The notes under the pieces: model-generated | Database searches by the model: none | Told to the model about the DNA's origin: nothing | What the model saw: only the letters and a program-made list of their open reading frames with translations | Program-made: the position numbers and the translations under genes | Source of the DNA: Terriglobales bacterium | GTDB taxonomy: Bacteria; Acidobacteriota; Terriglobia; Terriglobales; Acidobacteriaceae | Direction: 5' to 3' | NCBI GenBank assembly: GCA_035651995.1 | Contig: DASRER010000034.1 | Span: forward strand, 1-64,000 | Length of the DNA stretch: 64,000 nucleotides | Part shown: piece after piece, positions 2,656 through 33,402 of the stretch | Position numbering within the stretch: position 1 is the first letter of the stretch | How the letters are laid out: every line of letters begins with the position of its first letter

Positions 2656-4182
2656 ATGGGGCAAGCCGTCGCCTATTGCCGGGTTTCGACTGAGGAACAG
2701 ACGCAGAACCTCAGCTTGGCCTCGCAGCGGAAGATCTGCCTCGAATGGTGCCAGCGGAACGACTACGAGGTCGCTGCGGTCTTCGTCGAAGAAGGCGAGT
2801 CGGCCAAGACGGCTGATCGCACGCAACTCAAAGAGCTGCTGAAGCTCTGTCGCGAGCGTAAGGACGTTGAGGTCGTCGTTGTTGCGCGGCTGGATCGCTG
2901 GGCGCGCAACAGCCTCGATCACGCGAACCTCAGGAGCGTTCTTGGCGCCATCGGCGTGACCCTTCGCTCCGCGACTGAGGCGATTGACGACACCTATACC
3001 GGCAAGTTCATGGAGACGGTGCTGTCGGCAGTCGCGGAATTGGACAACAGCATCAGGGCCGACCGCAGCATTAAGGGCATGAAGGGGCGGCTGGAACAGG
3101 GGCAGTGGACGTTTCCGCCGCCAATCGGCTACCTCGCCGCAATAGACGGGAAGGGCGAGAAAACCATCATGCCCGATCCAGAGCGGGCGCCGCTCGTTGA
3201 GAAGGCGTTTGGCTGGTTCTCAGCGGGTATCTACACGAAGGAGCAGGTCAGACGGAAGCTCGATCAGCTCGGTCTCAAGACCAAGCGCGGCCATAAGCTC
3301 TCGGCGCAGTCCTTCAACGCCCTTCTGCGCAAGCCGGTCTACGCCGGCTGGATCGTCGTGCCGAAGTGGGATATCAACGTTCAGGGACGGTTTACGTCGA
3401 TTGTTGATCGCGATACGTTTGATCGCGTCCAGGCACTGCTCCAAGGCCGCGCTCCTGCACTCTCGCCGCGCAAGCGCAATCATCCCGACTTCCCGCTGCG
3501 GCATTTCGTTCGATGCGGCGACTGCGGCAAGCCAATGACTGCCAGTTGGTCAACCAGCCATACCAAGCGCAAGTATGCGTTCTACCGATGTCAGCACCGC
3601 GGCTGCATTACGCCTCGCCGGAACGTCAGCAAGGCCGAGATGGAATCCGAGTTCTGCGAGTTTCTCCATCTGATCCTGCCAAAGCCGGAACATATGCGCC
3701 TTTTCCGAGCGGTCTTTTTGGACGTCTGCAAGGGCAGGCAGACTGACGCGGCGACCCTGCAAGACGCGGCCGAAAAGAAAGTCCTCGACCTGAGAGAGCG
3801 GAAGCGGAAGCTCGACGAAGCGTTCGTCTATCGCCATGCCATCGACGAGCGCACCTACCAGGAGATGAAAGCTGCCTTGCTGGAGCAGCTCAACCTAGCC
3901 GAGATGGAGCAGCGGGATGCCCGGAAGGAAGAATTGGATTTCGAGGCGATCCTCAATTTCGCCGAGTTCGTTCTGCGTGATGCTGGGAACTTCTGGAGCC
4001 ACTGCTCGCTGGAGCAGAAGCAGCGGTTCCAGCAGGTCCTTTTCCCCGCAGGCGTGTATTTTGCAAATGGCGCTTATCGAACCCCGATAACTACTTGGAG
4101 CTTTAGCGAGATAGCGGCAGCCGAGGACGAAAAGGAAGGTTTGGTAGCGCTACCGGGAATCGAACCCGGGTTTGAAGATTGA
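2656..4182 (+). CDS. Large serine recombinase (integrase of the left-hand element)
   Basis: 508 aa. The N-terminal resolvase domain (about 4-150) has the catalytic Ser11 in YCRVSTEEQ and the Arg-rich RLDRWARN strand. A recombinase domain follows (about 160-270), then a zinc ribbon (CGDCG near 285 and YRCQHRGC near 313), then a coiled coil (about 365-435), the usual order for large serine integrases. The last residues (LVALPGIEPGFED) are encoded by the antisense of the tRNA-Glu gene, so the 3' end of the gene overlaps 4142-4182 of the tRNA. This places the attachment core at the tRNA 3' end and marks this as the element's right border. Tyrosine recombinases use tRNA ends more often than serine ones, which makes this junction notable. 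Confidence 0.92.
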   Translation: MGQAVAYCRVSTEEQTQNLSLASQRKICLEWCQRNDYEVAAVFVEEGESAKTADRTQLKELLKLCRERKDVEVVVVARLDRWARNSLDHANLRSVLGAIGVTLRSATEAIDDTYTGKFMETVLSAVAELDNSIRADRSIKGMKGRLEQGQWTFPPPIGYLAAIDGKGEKTIMPDPERAPLVEKAFGWFSAGIYTKEQVRRKLDQLGLKTKRGHKLSAQSFNALLRKPVYAGWIVVPKWDINVQGRFTSIVDRDTFDRVQALLQGRAPALSPRKRNHPDFPLRHFVRCGDCGKPMTASWSTSHTKRKYAFYRCQHRGCITPRRNVSKAEMESEFCEFLHLILPKPEHMRLFRAVFLDVCKGRQTDAATLQDAAEKKVLDLRERKRKLDEAFVYRHAIDERTYQEMKAALLEQLNLAEMEQRDARKEELDFEAILNFAEFVLRDAGNFWSHCSLEQKQRFQQVLFPAGVYFANGAYRTPITTWSFSEIAAAEDEKEGLVALPGIEPGFED

Positions 4183-4216
4183 GAATCTTCCGTCCTAACC
4201 CCTAGACGATAGCGCC
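4142..4216 (-). tRNA. tRNA-Glu (anticodon CTC)
   Basis: The minus strand folds into a complete cloverleaf. The acceptor arm GGCGCTA (4216-4210) pairs with TAGCGCT (4152-4146) through a G-U first pair. The D-arm contains GTCTAGGGGTTAGGAC, the anticodon stem is GAAGA/TCTTC around loop TTCTCAA (anticodon CTC), and the T-arm is CCGGG-TTCGATT-CCCGG. The discriminator A and a genomically encoded CCA end at 4142. The 3' half is shared with the end of the serine recombinase gene and is the likely attachment core of the integrated element to the left. Confidence 0.96.
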
Positions 4217-7337: not shown

Positions 7338-7495
7338 AGTACCAGTTGCCGGTTGCCAGTTGCCCCTTGTCAGAAATCGGCGCTTAGCACCTGGCAGTTA
7401 GCACTTGGCCCCTCAGATCGGACCTGGACGGCCAATGCCAAGTACCAATTGCTAACTTCCCTTTCTGGCAACTGCCAACCGGCAACTGGCAACTA
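7338..7495. repeat. Heptad inverted-repeat element A (nested arms)
   Basis: Outer arms at 7338-7364 (units of GTTGCCA/GTTGCCG) and 7466-7495 (their reverse complement) enclose inner arms at 7383-7410 (TTAGCAC, CTGGCAG, TTAGCAC, TTGGCC) and 7430-7456. The centre is 7411-7429. All arms have a 7-bp period. The last bases supply the TAG stop of the SpoIIE phosphatase gene (7493-7495). Confidence 0.85.
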
Positions 7496-14356: not shown

Positions 14357-14466
14357 TCAGCAATTCGCAGCTAGCATTGGCCGCTCAAATCAGACCTGGA
14401 CGGCTGAATGCCAGGTGCCAATTGCCAATTGCCGGTCTGGCAACTGATAACTGACAACCGGCAACT
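14357..14466. repeat. Heptad inverted-repeat element C
   Basis: Left arm 14357-14382 (ATCAGCA, ATTCGCA, GCTAGCA, TTGGCC), right arm 14404-14466 with units TGCCAAT, TGCCAAT, TGCCGGT, then GGCAACT, GATAACT, GACAACC, GGCAACT. Its centre shares the motif GACCTGGACGGC with element A. The terminal CTA supplies the TAG stop of kduI. Confidence 0.82.
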
Positions 14467-15304
14467 ACTTCCTCGCCTGGTCGAGTCCCGAGCCGCCCGC
14501 GCCGAAGCCCGGCTGCACGTTGACCACGCCGAACTGCCGGTCTTCCACCTCGCGGTGCGCCGCCATCGCCCACAGGAATCCAATGCGATGTCCCGGCGCC
14601 GCCACGTTCGGGTGGTAGCCGCGCGGCATGAGCACCGCGTCGCCGTCGCGCACAATCGTGACCAGTTCCGGCTCGTGCGTGTTCGTGTACACCAGCTGTA
14701 ATCCAAACGCCGGAGGAGGCATGTGCGTATACACGTACAGCTCCTCGGCCAGCACGGCGTGCTCGTGCGGCGGCCAGCTCGTCCAGTTGCCGGGCTCGGA
14801 GAGCGTGAGGCCCGCCATGATGCGCCCCGCCTTCACGTTCTTCCCGAACATGATGTTCAGCTCGCGGCGCGTGGCGTCCGACCCGGTAACGAAGTGCAGT
14901 GTCTTGTCCTGCTTGAGGTCGGCATAGCGGACGACCTGGAGCGGATAGTCGTTGTCCACTTCGGCGGCGAATTCGGCGATGTCGCAACCGGCGGCGCTCG
15001 AGATGCTGACCTGCGAATTGCGCGGAATGTAGATCGCGTCATAGGTGCCGAGCGAAATCTTCTCTTCGTTGACGCGCAATTCGGCCGAGCCGCCCACAAC
15101 GATGAGTCCGGTTTCGCGCTTCCCTGTCTCGAAGCTCACCCCGTTGCCGCCGCGATCCAGGATGGTGCGCGCATAGTAAAGGTGCTGCATGCTGCTGTTG
15201 TGCGGTGTGACAACGACCTTGCGTCCCTTGTGCGCGTTGGTCGCGCGAAAGACGTTGCCTTCCTTCGTCACCGGTTCGGCCATAACTTGGGTTTGCGTGC
15301 TCAC
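14465..15304 (-). CDS. kduI: 5-keto-4-deoxyuronate isomerase (KduI/IolB family)
   Basis: 279 aa, the usual KduI length, with a two-cupin fold: YDAIYIPRNSQVSISS in the N-terminal barrel and metal-binding WPPHEHAVLAEELYVYTHMP (His-x-His-x5-Glu) in the C-terminal barrel. The family also includes IolB (5-deoxy-glucuronate isomerase) and some Acidobacteria annotations use that name. The neighbours kduD, kdgK, eda and the lyase argue for the uronate isomerase. Its start overlaps the heparinase-like gene stop by 4 bp, so the two are translationally coupled. Its TAG stop lies in repeat element C. Confidence 0.85.
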   Translation of the reverse strand: MSTQTQVMAEPVTKEGNVFRATNAHKGRKVVVTPHNSSMQHLYYARTILDRGGNGVSFETGKRETGLIVVGGSAELRVNEEKISLGTYDAIYIPRNSQVSISSAAGCDIAEFAAEVDNDYPLQVVRYADLKQDKTLHFVTGSDATRRELNIMFGKNVKAGRIMAGLTLSEPGNWTSWPPHEHAVLAEELYVYTHMPPPAFGLQLVYTNTHEPELVTIVRDGDAVLMPRGYHPNVAAPGHRIGFLWAMAAHREVEDRQFGVVNVQPGFGAGGSGLDQARK

Positions 15305-27745: not shown

Positions 27746-27893
27746 CAGTTGCCGGTTGCCAGTTGCCGGCCGTCAGGAGTTTACAGTTTACAGTTCACAG
27801 TTTGCGACACGAAAACGCAGCCCGATCCCGCGGTGAAGACGCGTGGAAGAGGATTGTGAATGTGAACTGTGAACTGACTGGCAACTGGCAACT
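27746..27893. repeat. Heptad inverted-repeat element G with two unit types
   Basis: Outer arms: 27746-27770 (GTTGCCG, GTTGCCA, GTTGCCG) and 27880-27893 (GGCAACTGGCAACT). Inner arms use another 7-bp unit: 27780-27804 (TTTACAG, TTTACAG, TTCACAG, TTTGC) and 27856-27876 (GTGAATGTGAACTGTGAACTG). The right end supplies the TAG stop of the small membrane protein gene at 27892. Confidence 0.82.
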
Positions 27894-28311
27894 ATTTCTC
27901 GCGGTAATGCACCGCTTCCCAGATGCCGATCCAGATATCGAGCAGTCCCATGCCCGACATGGCGCCGCGCACGAAGTTGTGCGCCGCCAGTTCCCGCAAG
28001 CCGGGGAAGCGCGCCAGCAAGCCATTGCTGGTCCACACCGGCAGCCAGGGCAGCACCACCAGCAGCATGCCCAACTCGATACAGAAGATGACGAAGATTA
28101 CCAGGAAGATGCGCTGCGTCCAGCGCGACATGCGGGGCACGGGCGCGCGTCCGGCGCCTCCTGCGGAGGAGCTGACCAGGTAGGGCTGGGCGGGCTCGGC
28201 GGTGTCGGTAAAAAGGCTCAACCGCGAATGGATGGGAGCTTCAGCCCGCGAGCTGCCGTCGTCAGCGGAGGCGCCGGTGCGCCTTTGAGGGGCCTGTGGC
28301 GTTGAGTCCAT
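27892..28311 (-). CDS. Hypothetical membrane protein
   Basis: 139 aa. The N-terminal 60 residues are polar and Ser/Ala/Pro-rich. One strong transmembrane helix follows (about 68-92, IFLVIFVIFCIELGMLLVVL) and a weaker hydrophobic segment (115-135, MSGMGLLDIWIGIWEAVHY). No family recognised. It lies 12 bp downstream of the large TPR gene on the same strand and is probably co-transcribed with it. Confidence 0.65.
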   Translation of the reverse strand: MDSTPQAPQRRTGASADDGSSRAEAPIHSRLSLFTDTAEPAQPYLVSSSAGGAGRAPVPRMSRWTQRIFLVIFVIFCIELGMLLVVLPWLPVWTSNGLLARFPGLRELAAHNFVRGAMSGMGLLDIWIGIWEAVHYREK

Positions 28312-28323
28312 CCAGACCGGATT

Positions 28324-31038
28324 CTACGCTCGCAGCGCCTTGATGCGCTCGGCCACGTCGCGGTAGTCGATGTTGCTGCCGTACACTTCCATGAACTGCT
28401 GCAGGGCCGCTTTCTTGTCGCCCGCCGCTTCGTGCGCCGCTCCCATCTCGTAGCGGATGGCCATGCGCGTCTCTTCATCCACCCCCGGGGACTTGATCGC
28501 CCTCTCGAACCACTTGATGGAAGCCTGTGGGACGCCCTTTTCCACGAAACAGTTGGCCAGCCACGTATAGGCCTGCACCCGATCGCTGAACTCGGCGCCG
28601 TTGTCGAGCGCGCGGCACACCTTTTGCAGCTCGCCGATGGCCTCGTCCAGCAGCCCCATCTCCTTGAAGGCGACCCCGAGGTTGTAGTGCGTTTGCGGAT
28701 CTTCGTCTTCGGGTGTGGCTTCTTCCACGCCCTCTTTGAATTCCTCGAACAAGTCGGAGAGCACCGACTTCTCTTCCGCGGCTGCCGCCGCAGCTGAAAC
28801 CGGCGCCCCTGCAGGGGCCGCTGGCGGGGCCGGCGGAGGCGCGGCCGGCGCTTTCGCTGCCGGCTTGGCGGGAGCCGGCGGCTCGGCCACGGCGAAGTCG
28901 TCGCCCAGCGACGATTCCAGGTCCGAAACCAAATCTCCCAGCGCGCTGGTCGACGCCGCCGCGGCCGCCTGCCTCTGCGGAGCCGGCGGAGGCGCGGCGC
29001 CTGCCGGTGGTGGCGGAGGCGGCGCAGCTTCCACAACGGGGGCGACCGGCTCCGGTGCAACCTGGGCCGGCACGCTGCCGGCTTCGATCTGTGCGCGCAG
29101 GTCACGAATTTCGGTGGACTCGGGCGCCGATTCAGCGGCCTTCGCCAGGGCCGAGCGCGCCTCGTTCCACATGCCCTGCGAAATGTAAAAGCGCGCCTCG
29201 TCGAGCAGATCGGTGACCGTTGAAGCGACCGGCGCGGCCCTGGCCGCGGCTTTCGCAGCGGCTTCGGCGGCGGCGGCTTCGGCGGCGGCCGCCTTGGCCT
29301 TGGCGGCTTCTTCCGCCTCGGGCGTGCCCGGCTCGGGCTCGGCCACGGCCATGCTCTCCCACTCGGAGGAGAGATCGATTTCCTTGTGCGTCGGCTGGGC
29401 TTTCGGAGGCGGCTCGGCAGCCGGCGCCTCGACGGCAAACTCGGCCGCCGCGGCAACGGCGGACACAGGTTCGGCCGGCCCGCGCGCGCGATAGCGAGTG
29501 GCCATCTCGCCGTACTGCGTCGCCTGGTCGGCAAATCCCGCCTCGGAGTAGACCTCGCTCAGCACGCTGCAGCAGCGCGCCGCGTCGGCGTACCGGCCCG
29601 CGCGCACGTACAGCGACGCCAGGCGGTGGTTCATGCGTGCATCGCGCGGCGCCTTGGGCAGCGCCGCCTCCAGCGGATCGATCGCCTTCTGCGGCATGTT
29701 GTAGGAATCGAGCAGCTCGGAATCGGTCAGCGCCGCCTTGATCGCATCGCCGGTCAGTTCGTCGTACTCCTGCACCAGGTTCGGCGCGGTGATCTCCAGC
29801 TCGTCGACCATGAAGGCCTGCGAGCCTTCTTCCTTGGAAAGCTCGCGCGTGGCCGGGTCTTCGCCGAGCTTGGAGACCATCTGGCGATAGTGCTGCATGT
29901 GGAGCGCGTTTTCCGGCTCCATCTTCGCCAGCTCCTGGTAGAGGTCGCGCGCCTTGGCGAGCTGGTTGGTCTGCACGTAAGCGTGCGCCAGCAGCTCGGT
30001 GACCTCGCCCAGGTTCGTGCTCTCCCCGGCGCGCTGATAGAGCGAAAGCAGCATCTCCAGCGCCGCCGGATTCTCCTTGATGCGCGCGATCGAGCCGTGC
30101 AGCGCCCGCAAGGTCGCAGCCGCGTTGCCCTTGAGCAGGCGGTCGGCATAATTTTCGTAAACCCGCAGCGCGCCTTCGAAGTTGCCGCCCGTCATCAGCG
30201 CCTCGGCATACGCGGTGATGCCCGCCGGATCGTTGTGCACCGTGAGCAGCTTCTTGGCCACCGGCTCGGCCTCGCCCAGGTTGCCGGTCATCAGCCTGGC
30301 CTTGAGCAGCAAAGTGAGCGCTTCGGGACGCGAATCAATGTTGGGGATCTGCTCCAGGTGCTTGACGGCGGCGGCCGAGTCGCCCGTTTCAACGGCAATC
30401 TTCCCGCGCAGCAGCAGCGCCGCCGTGTTCGTGGGCTCGATGCGCAGCACGCGGCCCAGCGCTTCGTCGGCCGAATCGTGCGCGCCGCGCTGATACAGCG
30501 ACTGCGCCGCCGAGAAGAAGATGTTGCGCGCTTCGTCCTTTTTGTCCAGACGCAGGTAGAGGTCGGCCAGCTTCGACTGCATGGCCGCGTTCTCCGGATC
30601 CAGTTCCAGCATCTTCTGGAAGATCTTCGCCGCCTGCTGCAGCTCGTTGACGCGCATGTACAGGTCGGCCACCTGCATGTAATGCGCGCGCGCATCGGAG
30701 TAGAGGCCCTGCTGCGTGTAAAGCTCAGCCATACGCAGGATGCAGTCGGTCGACGTGTTGCTGAGCTTGGTGATCTTCTTGTACATGGCGATGGCTTTCA
30801 CCGTGAAGCCGCCGCCCGCGTACGAATCGCCAACCTTCTTGAAGTAGCTGATGGCCTGCTCGGTCTGTCCCAGCCGCGCGTACAGGTCGCCGATGGTGTT
30901 CAGCACCGTCAGCTCTTTGGGGTCTTCCTTGGCGACCTTCAGGTACTCGTTGATGGCATTCTGCAGCTTGCCCTGCTGGACGTACTTCTCCGCCGCCGCC
31001 AGGACCTTCGTCTTGTTAAAACCGAAACCGAGCACCAT
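28324..31038 (-). CDS. Large TPR-repeat protein
   Basis: 904 aa from ATG 31038 (GGAG 9 bp upstream, MVLGFGFNKTKVLAAAEKYV). About a dozen TPR-like helical pairs fill residues 10-480 (for example NAINEYLKVAKEDPKELTVL and AAKIFQKMLELDPENAAMQS). An Ala/Pro/Glu-rich low-complexity linker spans roughly 500-730 with short helical islands (SDLESSLGDDF). Further TPRs follow (GVAFKEMGLLDEAIGELQKV) to the C-terminus. There is no signal peptide, so the protein is cytosolic. Such acidobacterial TPR proteins are scaffold-like; the partner is unknown. Codons for the linker are extremely GC-rich. No coding signal lies upstream in 31039-31303. Confidence 0.85.
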   Translation of the reverse strand: MVLGFGFNKTKVLAAAEKYVQQGKLQNAINEYLKVAKEDPKELTVLNTIGDLYARLGQTEQAISYFKKVGDSYAGGGFTVKAIAMYKKITKLSNTSTDCILRMAELYTQQGLYSDARAHYMQVADLYMRVNELQQAAKIFQKMLELDPENAAMQSKLADLYLRLDKKDEARNIFFSAAQSLYQRGAHDSADEALGRVLRIEPTNTAALLLRGKIAVETGDSAAAVKHLEQIPNIDSRPEALTLLLKARLMTGNLGEAEPVAKKLLTVHNDPAGITAYAEALMTGGNFEGALRVYENYADRLLKGNAAATLRALHGSIARIKENPAALEMLLSLYQRAGESTNLGEVTELLAHAYVQTNQLAKARDLYQELAKMEPENALHMQHYRQMVSKLGEDPATRELSKEEGSQAFMVDELEITAPNLVQEYDELTGDAIKAALTDSELLDSYNMPQKAIDPLEAALPKAPRDARMNHRLASLYVRAGRYADAARCCSVLSEVYSEAGFADQATQYGEMATRYRARGPAEPVSAVAAAAEFAVEAPAAEPPPKAQPTHKEIDLSSEWESMAVAEPEPGTPEAEEAAKAKAAAAEAAAAEAAAKAAARAAPVASTVTDLLDEARFYISQGMWNEARSALAKAAESAPESTEIRDLRAQIEAGSVPAQVAPEPVAPVVEAAPPPPPPAGAAPPPAPQRQAAAAASTSALGDLVSDLESSLGDDFAVAEPPAPAKPAAKAPAAPPPAPPAAPAGAPVSAAAAAAEEKSVLSDLFEEFKEGVEEATPEDEDPQTHYNLGVAFKEMGLLDEAIGELQKVCRALDNGAEFSDRVQAYTWLANCFVEKGVPQASIKWFERAIKSPGVDEETRMAIRYEMGAAHEAAGDKKAALQQFMEVYGSNIDYRDVAERIKALRA

Positions 31039-31303
31039 GTTGCAGGACTCCCTGCTGAAACCGCGCGCCCAGCCACGCTCCCAGGCGCAAAACGCACAGG
31101 CGTGCGCGAGGCACGCGGGCCGCAAAACGGCTGCCTGTGAAGCGCGTCGGACGGGTACCGGCCCTCCGGCCTTTGCTCGGCGCCGGCGCCGGTTCTGGGG
31201 GCCCATCCGTTCAGGGTTCACCCCGAACAGAGCCACTCTGGACGGGGTGTAAGGTAACACAGTTGGTAATGGGACAGGAAGGTGCGCGGGAGGGGTTTGA
31301 GCG

Positions 31304-31566
31304 AGTTGTCAGTTGCCGGTTGCCAGTTGCCAGTTAAACCCCTAGGACTGGAGCGAGGCTATCAAGCCGTTGATAATTCGGCCGTGCATCTCTTCGCGTG
31401 GGAAACAGGCGCTGGCGGCATAGACTTCTTTCACGAAAACGATTCCCTTCTGCCAGGCGACAGGGTCTCGATCACTGTTCGGCATGGTCCCCTCTCCCGT
31501 TCTGACAACCGCCAACTCTCGAGGGCGGTGTTTCAACCGGCAACTGGCAGCCGGCAACTGACAACT
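31304..31566. mobile_element. Heptad element H: 32-bp inverted repeats flanking a truncated four-helix-bundle ORF
   Basis: Left arm 31304-31335 and right arm 31535-31566 are reverse complements at 30 of 32 positions; both are made of GTTGYCA/GTTGCCG heptads (AGTTGTCAGTTGCCGG at the outer ends). The 199-bp interior carries the start of a four-helix-bundle protein gene in minus orientation. The right arm abuts the TAA stop of the sodium-solute symporter gene. Terminal complementarity plus a four-helix-bundle ORF is the layout of 23S rRNA intervening sequences, here in an intergenic position. Element status is inference; the inverted repeat is directly visible. Confidence 0.65.
31342..31485 (-). 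pseudogene. Four-helix-bundle (23S rRNA intervening-sequence-type) protein, truncated
   Basis: 47 codons from ATG 31485, which has an excellent GGAGAGGGG upstream. The protein (MPNSDRDPVAWQKGIVFVKE, then VYAASACFPREEMHG) matches the first helix and turn of the four-helix-bundle family of IVS-encoded proteins, whose full length is about 115-130 aa. The expected continuation (L-T-S-Q-x-R-R-A-A-V-S-x-P) is absent; the frame runs a few more codons into non-homologous sequence and stops. It is therefore a 5' fragment, enclosed between the two arms of element H. The same fold occurs in the Avd accessory protein of diversity-generating retroelements. Confidence 0.75.
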
Positions 31567-33402
31567 TTATCGTGTCGTTCGTGCGGACTTGCCCGCAGCG
31601 TTCTCCGCTCCCCACCCCTGCCGCTCCAGGTTCCAGTACAACCCGCCGGCGCACGCCGCCGCCACAACCATAAGCCCCACCCCAAGCCCCGCCTCGTGCA
31701 GCAGAATCTTCCCCACCCCAAACAGCGCCGCGTACACCATCCCGCAGCCCAGCACCCACGAGAGCAGGTTCGCTCCCAGGTCGCGCGTGCGCGGCACGTC
31801 GGGCGCTTTGGCCGCCACCGGATGCCATCCCGCCGCGTGCGGACGCACCTTCCGATAGAAGCGCATCAGCACGTCGTCCGGCTCCGGCCGCGTTGCAAAC
31901 GTGACGATGACCCAGACAATGCTGGTCACCGCCGTGGTCACGATCGCGTTCTCGGCCGACACCAGCGTTGCCGATCCATGAAATGGCTCGGCCATCCGCA
32001 GCGCCAGCGACACCACCAGCGCCGTCGCCATCGCCGCGATCTCGCTCCAGGCGTTAATGCGCCACCAGTACCAGCGCAGCAGATAGACCGCGCCCGTCCC
32101 CGCGCCCAGTTCCAGCACCCACTGCCAGCCGGCGCGAATCGACGTCAGCCCCCACGCCACCAGCCCTGATGCGATCACCAGCAGCACCGTCGCCACCCGC
32201 GACGCGTTCACGTAGTGCGCCTCGCTGGCGTCGCGCCGCAAAAAGCGCCGGTAGAAATCGGCCACCAGGTACGACGCGCCCCAGTTCAGCTGCGTCGCCA
32301 CGGTCGACATGAACGCCGCCAGAAATCCCGCGATCACGATTCCCATGAACGCATGCGGCACATGGTCGCCCACAATCCGCATGTATCCCGATTCCGGCTG
32401 CTCCAGGTTCGGATAGAGCACAATCGCCGCGAGGCCCGTGAGGATCCACGGCCACGGACGCAGCCCGTAGTGCGCCACGTTGAACCACAGCACCGAGAGC
32501 AGCCCGTGGCGCTCGTCGCGCGCGCTGAAGATGCGCTGCGCAATGTATCCGCCGCCGCCCGGCTCCGCCCCCGGATACCAGAACGCCCACCATTGCAGGC
32601 ACAGGAAAACCAGGAACGTCAGCACCGGCACCGTCCACAGCGGCGCTGCCGTGATCGCGCTGGAATGCGGCAGAAGCGCCGTCGGATCGCCAGCCCCCGC
32701 GCCGCCCGGCTGCGCGATCGCCACTTGCCGCGCCATGCTCAGCTTCGCCAGCAGCGCGCCCATTCCTCCGGCCGCGCTCACCGCGTAGTAGGCCACCACA
32801 ATCACGATGCCCATCTTCAGCACGAACTGGAACAGGTCCGTCCACAGCACGCCCCACAGTCCGCCGAGCGTGACGTAAATCCCGGTGAACGGCACCAGCA
32901 CGAGCACGCAGATGAGCGTGGCCTGCAAATTCGAAACCCCCAGCAGGTCGTGGAGGATGGTGATCATCGCCTTCGCCACCCATCCCAGGATGAGGCAGTT
33001 CATCAGCAGCCCGAGATAGACGGCGCGGAATCCGCGGAGGAACGCTGCCGGTTTGCCCGAGTAGCGCAGCTCGGCGAACTGCACGTCGGTGAGCAGCTCC
33101 GATCGCCGCCAAAGCCGCGCGAAGAGAAACACCGTCATCATTCCTGACGGCAGAAAACTCCACCACAACCAGTTCCCCGCGATGCCCTGCGTGTACACCA
33201 GCCCGGTGACCAGCAGCGGAGTGTCGGCGGCAAACGTCGTCGCCACCATCGAAGTGCCGGCCAGCCACCAGCTCACGTCGCGTCCGGAGACAAAGTAGTC
33301 CTCCGTGCTCTGCCCCGATTTGCGGCGGAAATACAGCCCTAGGATGAGCGTGATCAGCAGGTAGCCGGCAACGGCAGACCAGTCGAGGAGTGTGGGGCGC
33401 AT
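31567..33402 (-). CDS. Sodium:solute symporter (SSS family)
   Basis: 611 aa with 13-15 transmembrane helices. SSS marks: TM1 VAGYLLITLILGLYFRRKSG, the loop STEDYFVSGRDVSWWLAGTS, and GGLWGVLWTDLFQFVLKMGI in the family's signature region. Na-dependent uptake of a sugar, amino acid or similar solute is expected; the substrate is not readable. Long C-terminal extension (about 540-611) with two more helices. The neighbouring M28 peptidase on the same strand might supply its substrate, but this is a guess. Its stop codon directly joins the right arm of element H. Confidence 0.9.
   Translation of the reverse strand: MRPTLLDWSAVAGYLLITLILGLYFRRKSGQSTEDYFVSGRDVSWWLAGTSMVATTFAADTPLLVTGLVYTQGIAGNWLWWSFLPSGMMTVFLFARLWRRSELLTDVQFAELRYSGKPAAFLRGFRAVYLGLLMNCLILGWVAKAMITILHDLLGVSNLQATLICVLVLVPFTGIYVTLGGLWGVLWTDLFQFVLKMGIVIVVAYYAVSAAGGMGALLAKLSMARQVAIAQPGGAGAGDPTALLPHSSAITAAPLWTVPVLTFLVFLCLQWWAFWYPGAEPGGGGYIAQRIFSARDERHGLLSVLWFNVAHYGLRPWPWILTGLAAIVLYPNLEQPESGYMRIVGDHVPHAFMGIVIAGFLAAFMSTVATQLNWGASYLVADFYRRFLRRDASEAHYVNASRVATVLLVIASGLVAWGLTSIRAGWQWVLELGAGTGAVYLLRWYWWRINAWSEIAAMATALVVSLALRMAEPFHGSATLVSAENAIVTTAVTSIVWVIVTFATRPEPDDVLMRFYRKVRPHAAGWHPVAAKAPDVPRTRDLGANLLSWVLGCGMVYAALFGVGKILLHEAGLGVGLMVVAAACAGGLYWNLERQGWGAENAAGKSARTTR

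Follow-up and report, generated by a model that had tools for sequence, protein, structure and literature searches.

Genes of the PF05635/S23 family of four-helix-bundle proteins are flanked across bacteria by inverted arrays of short tandem units, usually 7 nt long, whose word differs between protein lineages, and in closely related plasmids the edges of these cassettes coincide with the edges of empty sites. The window analysed here, a stretch of 64,000 nt from a Terriglobales genome, carries a decayed cassette of this kind together with gene-less pairs of the same arrays. We consider it probable that the cassettes form a DNA-level class resembling REPIN–RAYT systems, in which an Avd-fold protein would bind its own word and spread both its cassette and gene-less pairs of arrays. 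On a wider claim we are evenly divided: that PF05635 proteins and short tandem arrays constitute a hitherto unrecognised class of mobile DNA that spans the bacteria and has a readable code, in which the lineage of the Avd-fold ring sets the 7-nt (sometimes 8-nt) word and the ring mobilises cassette and gene-less pairs, and that both the unexplained heptameric repeats of Xanthomonas, Nostoc, Beggiatoaceae and others and the intervening sequences (IVSs) of 23S rRNA derive from this class.

An internally deleted cassette between two protein-coding genes

The repeat search returned two heptad arms of 35 nt each, at 31304–31338 (plus strand) and 31532–31566 (minus strand), the right being the reverse complement of the left at 32/35 positions (91 % complementary). 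The left arm has a period of 7 and reads AGTTGTC, AGTTGCC, GGTTGCC and AGTTGCC, followed by AGTT; the unit can be written as (CAGTTGC) heptads with variants (C/G)AGTTG(C/T), and C/T and A/G changes occur. Heptad-built inverted arms around a four-helix-bundle ORF had been claimed in the original prediction and were confirmed, with pairing at 30/32 positions over the 32 bp considered there. The right arm directly precedes the TAA stop codon (31567–31569) of a sodium:solute symporter gene (PF00474, SSF; 31567–33402, minus strand), and a TPR-repeat protein gene (28324–31041, minus strand) lies downstream of the cassette; the symporter, the gene remnant between the arms and the TPR gene are all co-directional. 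The cassette sits between the SSF and TPR genes and outside 23S rRNA, as predicted, and the sole Rfam match in the window is a tRNA gene (4145–4216, minus strand).

Between the arms is an open frame (31342–31557, minus strand) in which the ATG at 31485 is the credible start codon and yields a product of 47 aa, MPNSDRDPVAWQKGIVFVKEVYAASACFPREEMHGRIINGLIASLQS*. Its first 35 codons (31381–31485, minus strand; MPNSDRD...FPREEMHG) align as the ordinary N-terminus of intact PF05635 homologues, and the final 12 codons plus stop (31342–31380, minus strand; RIINGLIASLQS), fused to them in frame, align as the ordinary C-terminus, the homologues ending ..GRILNGLLAS.... As both segments align to intact homologues, the roughly 70 missing middle codons represent an in-frame internal deletion; the ORF had been described as truncated, and of that description the family assignment stood (NF008911 and alignment) and simple truncation did not. 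Decayed inner heptads (about CTGACAACCGCCAACTCTC; 31501–31519, minus strand) lie between the gene start and the right arm. With its middle codons gone, the remnant lacks the complete four-helix fold that is present in intact relatives, and the window copy is a relic: a decayed, internally deleted small insertion cassette. Complementary ends around an S23p-type ORF were found both here and in intact relatives.

Taken alone, the profile score of the 47-aa remnant is weak (PF05635: E value 0.02–0.055, under the curated cut-off), and that score is what could be said for a chance resemblance or an annotation artefact; the match to NCBIfam NF008911 is better (E value 1e-4). We give this reading a negligible chance, as both ends of the remnant align to intact homologues, making it a family member despite the weak score, and as the probe, mis-pair and shifted-flank controls described below refute it.

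AGTTGCC arrays in the host genome

Arrays in the host genome (3.66 Mb, 48 contigs) were counted by pattern search, and stretches were then taken around each match. A 17-nt heptad probe, allowing 2 mismatches, gave 88 matches falling into roughly 40 loci, compared with 0 for the reversed probe, indicating that the heptad inverted repeat is not a product of chance. Four inverted AGTTGCC pairs lie in the window itself. Besides the pair around the gene remnant (31303–31567), these are gene-less pairs at 7343–7495, which we read as a non-autonomous copy, at 14412–14467, where AGTTGCC-type arrays have nearly no spacer, and at 27746–27894. In the last of these, AGTTTAC/AGTTCAC heptads are nested within the arms, and the outer AGTTGCC and the inner arrays are both inverted; this may reflect a change of word along one arm or the insertion of one element in another.

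Stray AGTTGCC arrays less than 400 nt apart showed plus–minus order in 16/19 neighbouring pairs (other orders, 3), suggesting that what is dispersed is an inverted pair whose polarity is fixed and equals that around the gene remnant, with spacers that vary from copy to copy. The host AGTTGCC family resembles an amplified population in which the copy with the gene, the window remnant, is now broken.

Two further PF05635 loci (L001 and L002) are present in the host genome. A search for AGTTGCC around both genes found no such arms, a misleading result because these loci carry arrays of other words, (GTTTCAC)n at L001 and (AAAATGC)n at L002. The L002 gene is broken by a TGA, and its word is likewise dispersed as inverted pairs in the host genome.

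Inverted arms around PF05635 genes in many phyla

Two sets of loci were assembled. For the first, comprising 86 distinct PF05635 genes from 61 relatives, the upstream flank of each gene was aligned to the reverse complement of its downstream flank, and the arm score of a gene's own pair exceeded the 99th percentile of mis-paired flanks for 52/86 genes. The second consisted of 80 loci from a scan of bacterial genomes across many phyla (Acidobacteriota, Planctomycetota, Clostridia, Bacteroidales, several proteobacterial classes, Verrucomicrobiota, Cyanobacteria, Chloroflexi, Patescibacteria and others), of which 64/78 exceeded the 95th percentile of mis-paired flanks. When the sets were pooled, with identical proteins removed and a few near-duplicate loci possibly remaining, 122/162 genes scored above the 99th percentile of shifted controls in the inverted orientation versus 14/162 in the direct orientation. 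About a quarter of PF05635 genes have no detectable inverted repeat.

The pooled arms showed an excess of autocorrelation at lags 7 and 14 and a small one at 8, the remaining lags being at control level, and an arm usually has four units (mostly 3–5). Variant heptads of the two arms matched in register at 0.874, compared with 0.784 at a 7-nt shift, the alignment having been chosen to maximise the former value, and we give this difference no weight. Heptad arms were present in 8/8 cyanobacterial plasmid copies inspected. A divergent PF05635 clade of 20 genes also has arms (19/20 above the 95th and 12/20 above the 99th percentile of mis-pairs), built from ATT-core units of 7 or 8 nt. Units of 8 nt stand beside units of 7 nt in this clade (L349–L368; ATTGGGTA, ATCGGATC). 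The Pfam and fold results revealed no enzymatic family between the arms, where the PF05635 gene was the only gene in the copies inspected, and no phage copies were found in INPHARED.

It had been suggested that intact four-helix-bundle genes should be flanked by heptad repeats, and this was upheld by the 122/162 genes with inverted arms. No single word is shared by all elements, as it changes with the lineage, and an AGTTGCC-only search consequently misses most of them. The accompanying suggestion of a mobile family is supported well beyond Acidobacteriota.

The heptad word follows the protein lineage

When units are read outside-in, (C/T)AG is present in 113/173, compared with 43.7 expected from shuffled units, and the other positions vary. 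Protein identity predicts word similarity (Mantel r 0.30; 0/2000 permutations reached r): the same word is shared by 48 % of pairs with at least 65 % protein identity and by 0.1 % of pairs at 30–40 %, and paralogues within one genome, which are at most 63 % identical, carry different words. A point against reading the cassettes as mobile is that this link could reflect plain co-inheritance of a gene and its linked arms. At such divergence one would expect non-coding arms to become blurred, from which we infer, on the sequence comparison, that the word is probably under selection or actively maintained.

Stray arrays are associated with resident genes of the matching type. The association covers three words with 3–4 carriers each among 61 genomes, and for each tested word the non-carrier genomes have a median of 0 probe matches. 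Carriers of CAGTTCT-type genes have 13–89 matches (p 1.8e-4), carriers of TAGTGGY-type genes 12–41 (p 2.1e-5) and carriers of the AGTTGCC type (one intact, one broken and one remnant gene) 18–35 (p 3e-4). Genomes without PF05635 averaged 1.9 matches over the three words versus 20.7, about tenfold fewer (p 0.002). Exceptions, with many arrays and no matching gene, include G006 and G028 for CAGTTCT and G057 for TAGTGGY. Inverted dispersed repeats matched to a single-copy resident gene, a trait of REPIN–RAYT systems, are thus found here as well.

Insertion sites and empty sites

In cyanobacterial plasmids that are 94–98 % identical, empty-site boundaries coincide with arm boundaries, and the empty sites contain no arrays. 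The clearest case, site C (L332 versus L335, 98 % identity), is an insertion at a TAA stop codon, TAAT (perhaps GTAAT) being present on either side: the empty site reads ..AAAGTTAAAAAGTAATTAACAAATAAATATG.. and the filled site ..AAAGTAAT-[ AAATCAGAATTCAG ... TTCTTCTTTG ]-TAATTAAC... The site C element recurs in another context (L337, 82 % identity) with matching ends. At two Nostoc sites, one an insertion in a 3-nt gap between two genes (site A) and the other an insertion at a TAATG overlap that leaves ATG on either side (site B), the target duplication is ambiguous, at site A in its length; it is clear at site C. At site B, 36 extra nt lie between the right arm and the duplicated target ATG (L333, about 3408–3443). 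A decayed cassette at site C of a Nostoc plasmid (L336, about 949–1080) ends right after FPKSEIY; its break point falls at approximately the same protein position as that of the window remnant, possibly marking a preferred deletion point.

At the gene junction where a rumen Prevotellaceae genome (L244) carries its cassette, congeners lack it; one of them (L302) has a bare short spacer there and others arrays of different words. In Prevotella relatives (L298–L326), arrays of several unrelated words occupy, in different species, a single intergenic site that follows a peptidase-like gene. Just outside the left arm of L244 (about 2887–2930), the final part of the host CDS is duplicated as a perfect 20-bp inverted copy (GACGCTGCCGTCAAAGTGCT g AGCACTTTGACGGCAGCGTC), a possible trace of fold-back synthesis at insertion.

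Operons are also interrupted. In Anabaena sp. 90, a heptad-armed PF05635 gene splits cas6 and cas4 of a type I-D CRISPR operon (L330, 2992–3360), and a cassette on a Nostoc plasmid sits between nrdB and nrdA. A near-identical stretch containing an integrase gene and a PF05635 cassette recurs on two Calothrix brevissima NIES-22 plasmids (L327 and L328) whose surroundings otherwise differ. In four genera (L099, L107, L112 and L191), an AGTTCTC-type cassette stands right after what by eye appears to be the same GTPase (ychF-like) gene, either because the insertion is orthologous and old or because the site is preferred.

The genomes compared gave no sign of a recent multi-copy burst of gene-carrying cassettes (protein identity within a genome peaks at 0.63), and the case for mobilisation accordingly draws on empty sites, on stray arrays and on copies that recur in another context. 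For the window's own site there is no syntenic counterpart, as no relative keeps the SSF/TPR gene pair together. The search for empty sites and target duplications proposed in the original prediction hence succeeded in relatives, where the edges are the arms and (G)TAAT is duplicated at site C, and not at the window site; its idea that the heptad elements are remnants of a gene-carrying mobile family was borne out by armed intact genes and by empty-site edges in those relatives.

The same comparisons bear on whether the arrays could be slippage microsatellites, in or beside which four-helix-bundle genes merely insert. Heptameric simple repeats are described as over-represented in many bacteria, with slippage as the proposed cause, in work cited in PMC4692102, and very long uniform arrays exist at L191 and L204. 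This account is already contradicted, and we hold it to be highly improbable, given that arms are inverted rather than direct (122 versus 14 of 162), that the word tracks the protein lineage, that empty sites are entirely free of arrays and that gene-less arrays pair in one polarity.

Orientation relative to neighbouring genes

Most intact genes have an upstream neighbour that runs in the same direction and whose stop codon lies no more than about 20 nt from the outer arm. Where the surrounding genes are in tandem, the cassette gene was co-directional in 60 cases and opposite in 8 (p 5.7e-11), counts that are approximate because a simple ORF rule was used to call neighbours. Selection for read-through expression could by itself account for this bias.

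Arrays that abut stop codons would also suit a regulatory pair that is not mobile, in which TRAP- or CsrA-like binding of arrays in 3′ UTRs sets transcript ends or stability and arrays are selected at gene ends. The heptad arrays of Xanthomonas and Nostoc are near gene ends too (PMC4692102), and the conservation of the word along the protein lineage is in keeping with such a role. We nevertheless regard it as improbable: cassettes are present or absent between near-identical plasmids and between congeners, they lie within unrelated operons (cas6–cas4 and nrdB–nrdA), and sister species have several unrelated words at one intergenic site.

DNA- or RNA-level spread

A link to the 23S rRNA IVSs had been drawn at the outset, and it holds: the Coxiella IVS is closed by a terminal stem of 28 bp and carries tandem GACAGAT heptamers beside its S23p ORF, the number of heptamers varies by strain and RNase III cleaves at the first repeat (PMC4990558). 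This raises the alternative that the cassettes act at the RNA level, their arms forming a dsRNA stem cut by RNase III and their spread proceeding via RNA, for example by Avd-like-aided reverse transcription. The protein family and layout shared with rRNA IVSs, the heptamers and RNase III cleavage at the stem of the Coxiella IVS (PMC4990558), a fold near that of Avd in the reverse-transcriptase RNPs of diversity-generating retroelements (DGRs) and the strong co-directional bias with the upstream gene all speak for it. The arms themselves do not bear the expected signature, as sense-strand G.U-type mismatches (173) are balanced by A.C-type mismatches (162; p 0.58), without wobble bias; the site C junction is clean at the DNA level, with a short target duplication, and a motif search found the conserved 23S motif in none of the PF05635 loci collected. 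Consequently, we consider spread at the RNA level rather unlikely, and the RNase III and RNA-stem part of the original prediction is unsupported by the arms and by the DNA-like junction.

Protein fold and proposed mechanism

AlphaFold predicts a confident four-helix bundle for an intact relative (pLDDT 94.7), the nearest structures being 2GSC (XCC0516; Z 21.8) and 2RLD (Z 17.4). Avd scores Z 15.5 in the DGR RNP (8UB7) and Z 15.2 in 4DWL, above the best unrelated bundles (Z 13.1), and the likeness to the Avd fold noted earlier is thereby substantiated. To our knowledge, PF05635 has no catalytic domain, so the protein alone would not be a transposase by any known chemistry. XCC0516 is reported to form a toroidal homopentamer (Lin et al. 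2006, cited in PMC4990558). A correspondence of one heptad to each subunit of a pentamer was considered and rejected, since the usual arm has four units, not five.

In the DNA-level reading that we favour, a cassette consists of inverted arrays of about 3–5 short tandem units, usually of 7 nt, around one PF05635/S23 gene, each protein lineage across the bacterial phyla having its own unit word. Insertion is into short intergenic gaps, as a rule at a stop codon, and in most cases the cassette points the same way as the gene upstream of it. We infer recognition of the word by the protein and mobilisation in trans: the Avd-fold ring, a pentamer in solved relatives, would bind arrays of its own word and promote the copying of its cassette into new intergenic sites, and gene-less inverted array pairs would be copied in trans by the same protein. 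The DNA-level reaction may borrow host enzymes, as RAYT proteins do for REPINs.

If recognition and mobility hold, the claim of such a class would be categorically new. It would provide a testable function and context for PF05635, a family with solved structures (2GSC and 2RLD) and no known role, and rRNA IVSs would become one branch of a wider class of elements. Protein lineages that specify 7-nt words, if confirmed, would offer a natural series of repeat-binding specificities. There is also a warning for annotation, as 'conserved neighbourhoods' of PF05635, such as cas loci, may be insertions; the presence of PF05635 in cas loci has been read earlier as a functional association (PMC3936711), and may instead reflect cassette insertion rather than partnership.

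Comparison with known systems

The 23S rRNA IVSs with an S23p/IVP ORF (Leptospira and Coxiella) are similar in having PF05635 as the one small gene between complementary ends, over about 0.4–0.8 kb. They differ in location, as the present cassettes lie between protein-coding genes, and in their arms, which here are generally heptad-built, lineage-specific and also dispersed without a gene, and from which the RNA-stem signature is absent.

Avd of DGRs shares the fold (Z 15.5 and 15.2) and the pentamer of solved relatives, whereas sequence identity is about 14 % and the present cassettes are single-gene. Among the annotated neighbours of eight cyanobacterial plasmid copies, none was labelled as a DGR part.

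The gene-less pairs recall MITEs, which are likewise short, gene-less inverted-repeat copies of a gene-carrying element. Of the features of DNA transposons and MITEs, empty sites and target duplication were found in relatives and a transposase gene was not; in contrast to MITEs, no transposase family is present and the terminal repeats are made of tandem units that differ in word from lineage to lineage.

Heptameric intergenic repeats have been left unexplained in surveys of Beggiatoaceae (TAACTGA; PMC4679880) and of Xanthomonas (GGGAATC) and Nostoc (GGGGA(C/T)T; PMC4692102). They resemble the present arrays in their 7-nt tandem units, internal variants and positions near gene ends, and PF05635 cassettes are a possible source. 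Xanthomonas campestris pv. campestris ATCC 33913 has such repeats (PMC4692102), and the solved XCC0516 comes from the same species; the arms of the Nostoc plasmid cassettes, GGGAACA/GGGAGTA, can be set beside the published Nostoc word. PMC4679880 and PMC4692102 tie the repeats neither to PF05635 nor to inverted cassettes, and in the literature covered (bioRxiv and most subscription journals apart) no link between heptad arrays and PF05635 was found beyond the Coxiella IVS heptamers. We predict that the repeats of Xanthomonas, Nostoc and Beggiatoaceae are linked to PF05635.

REPIN–RAYT systems have a single-copy gene per type, several types per genome and closest relatives in other genomes, and the gene is flanked by its own repeat, which is dispersed as inverted intergenic pairs (PMC3116915); all of this is like the present cassettes. 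RAYT, however, is a relative of tyrosine (HUH-type) transposases, whereas PF05635 is a four-helix bundle without a known catalytic site, and the present repeats are tandem heptad arrays rather than REP palindromes. By this analogy, the cassettes appear to work like REPIN–RAYT systems but are not members of them, their gene being PF05635.
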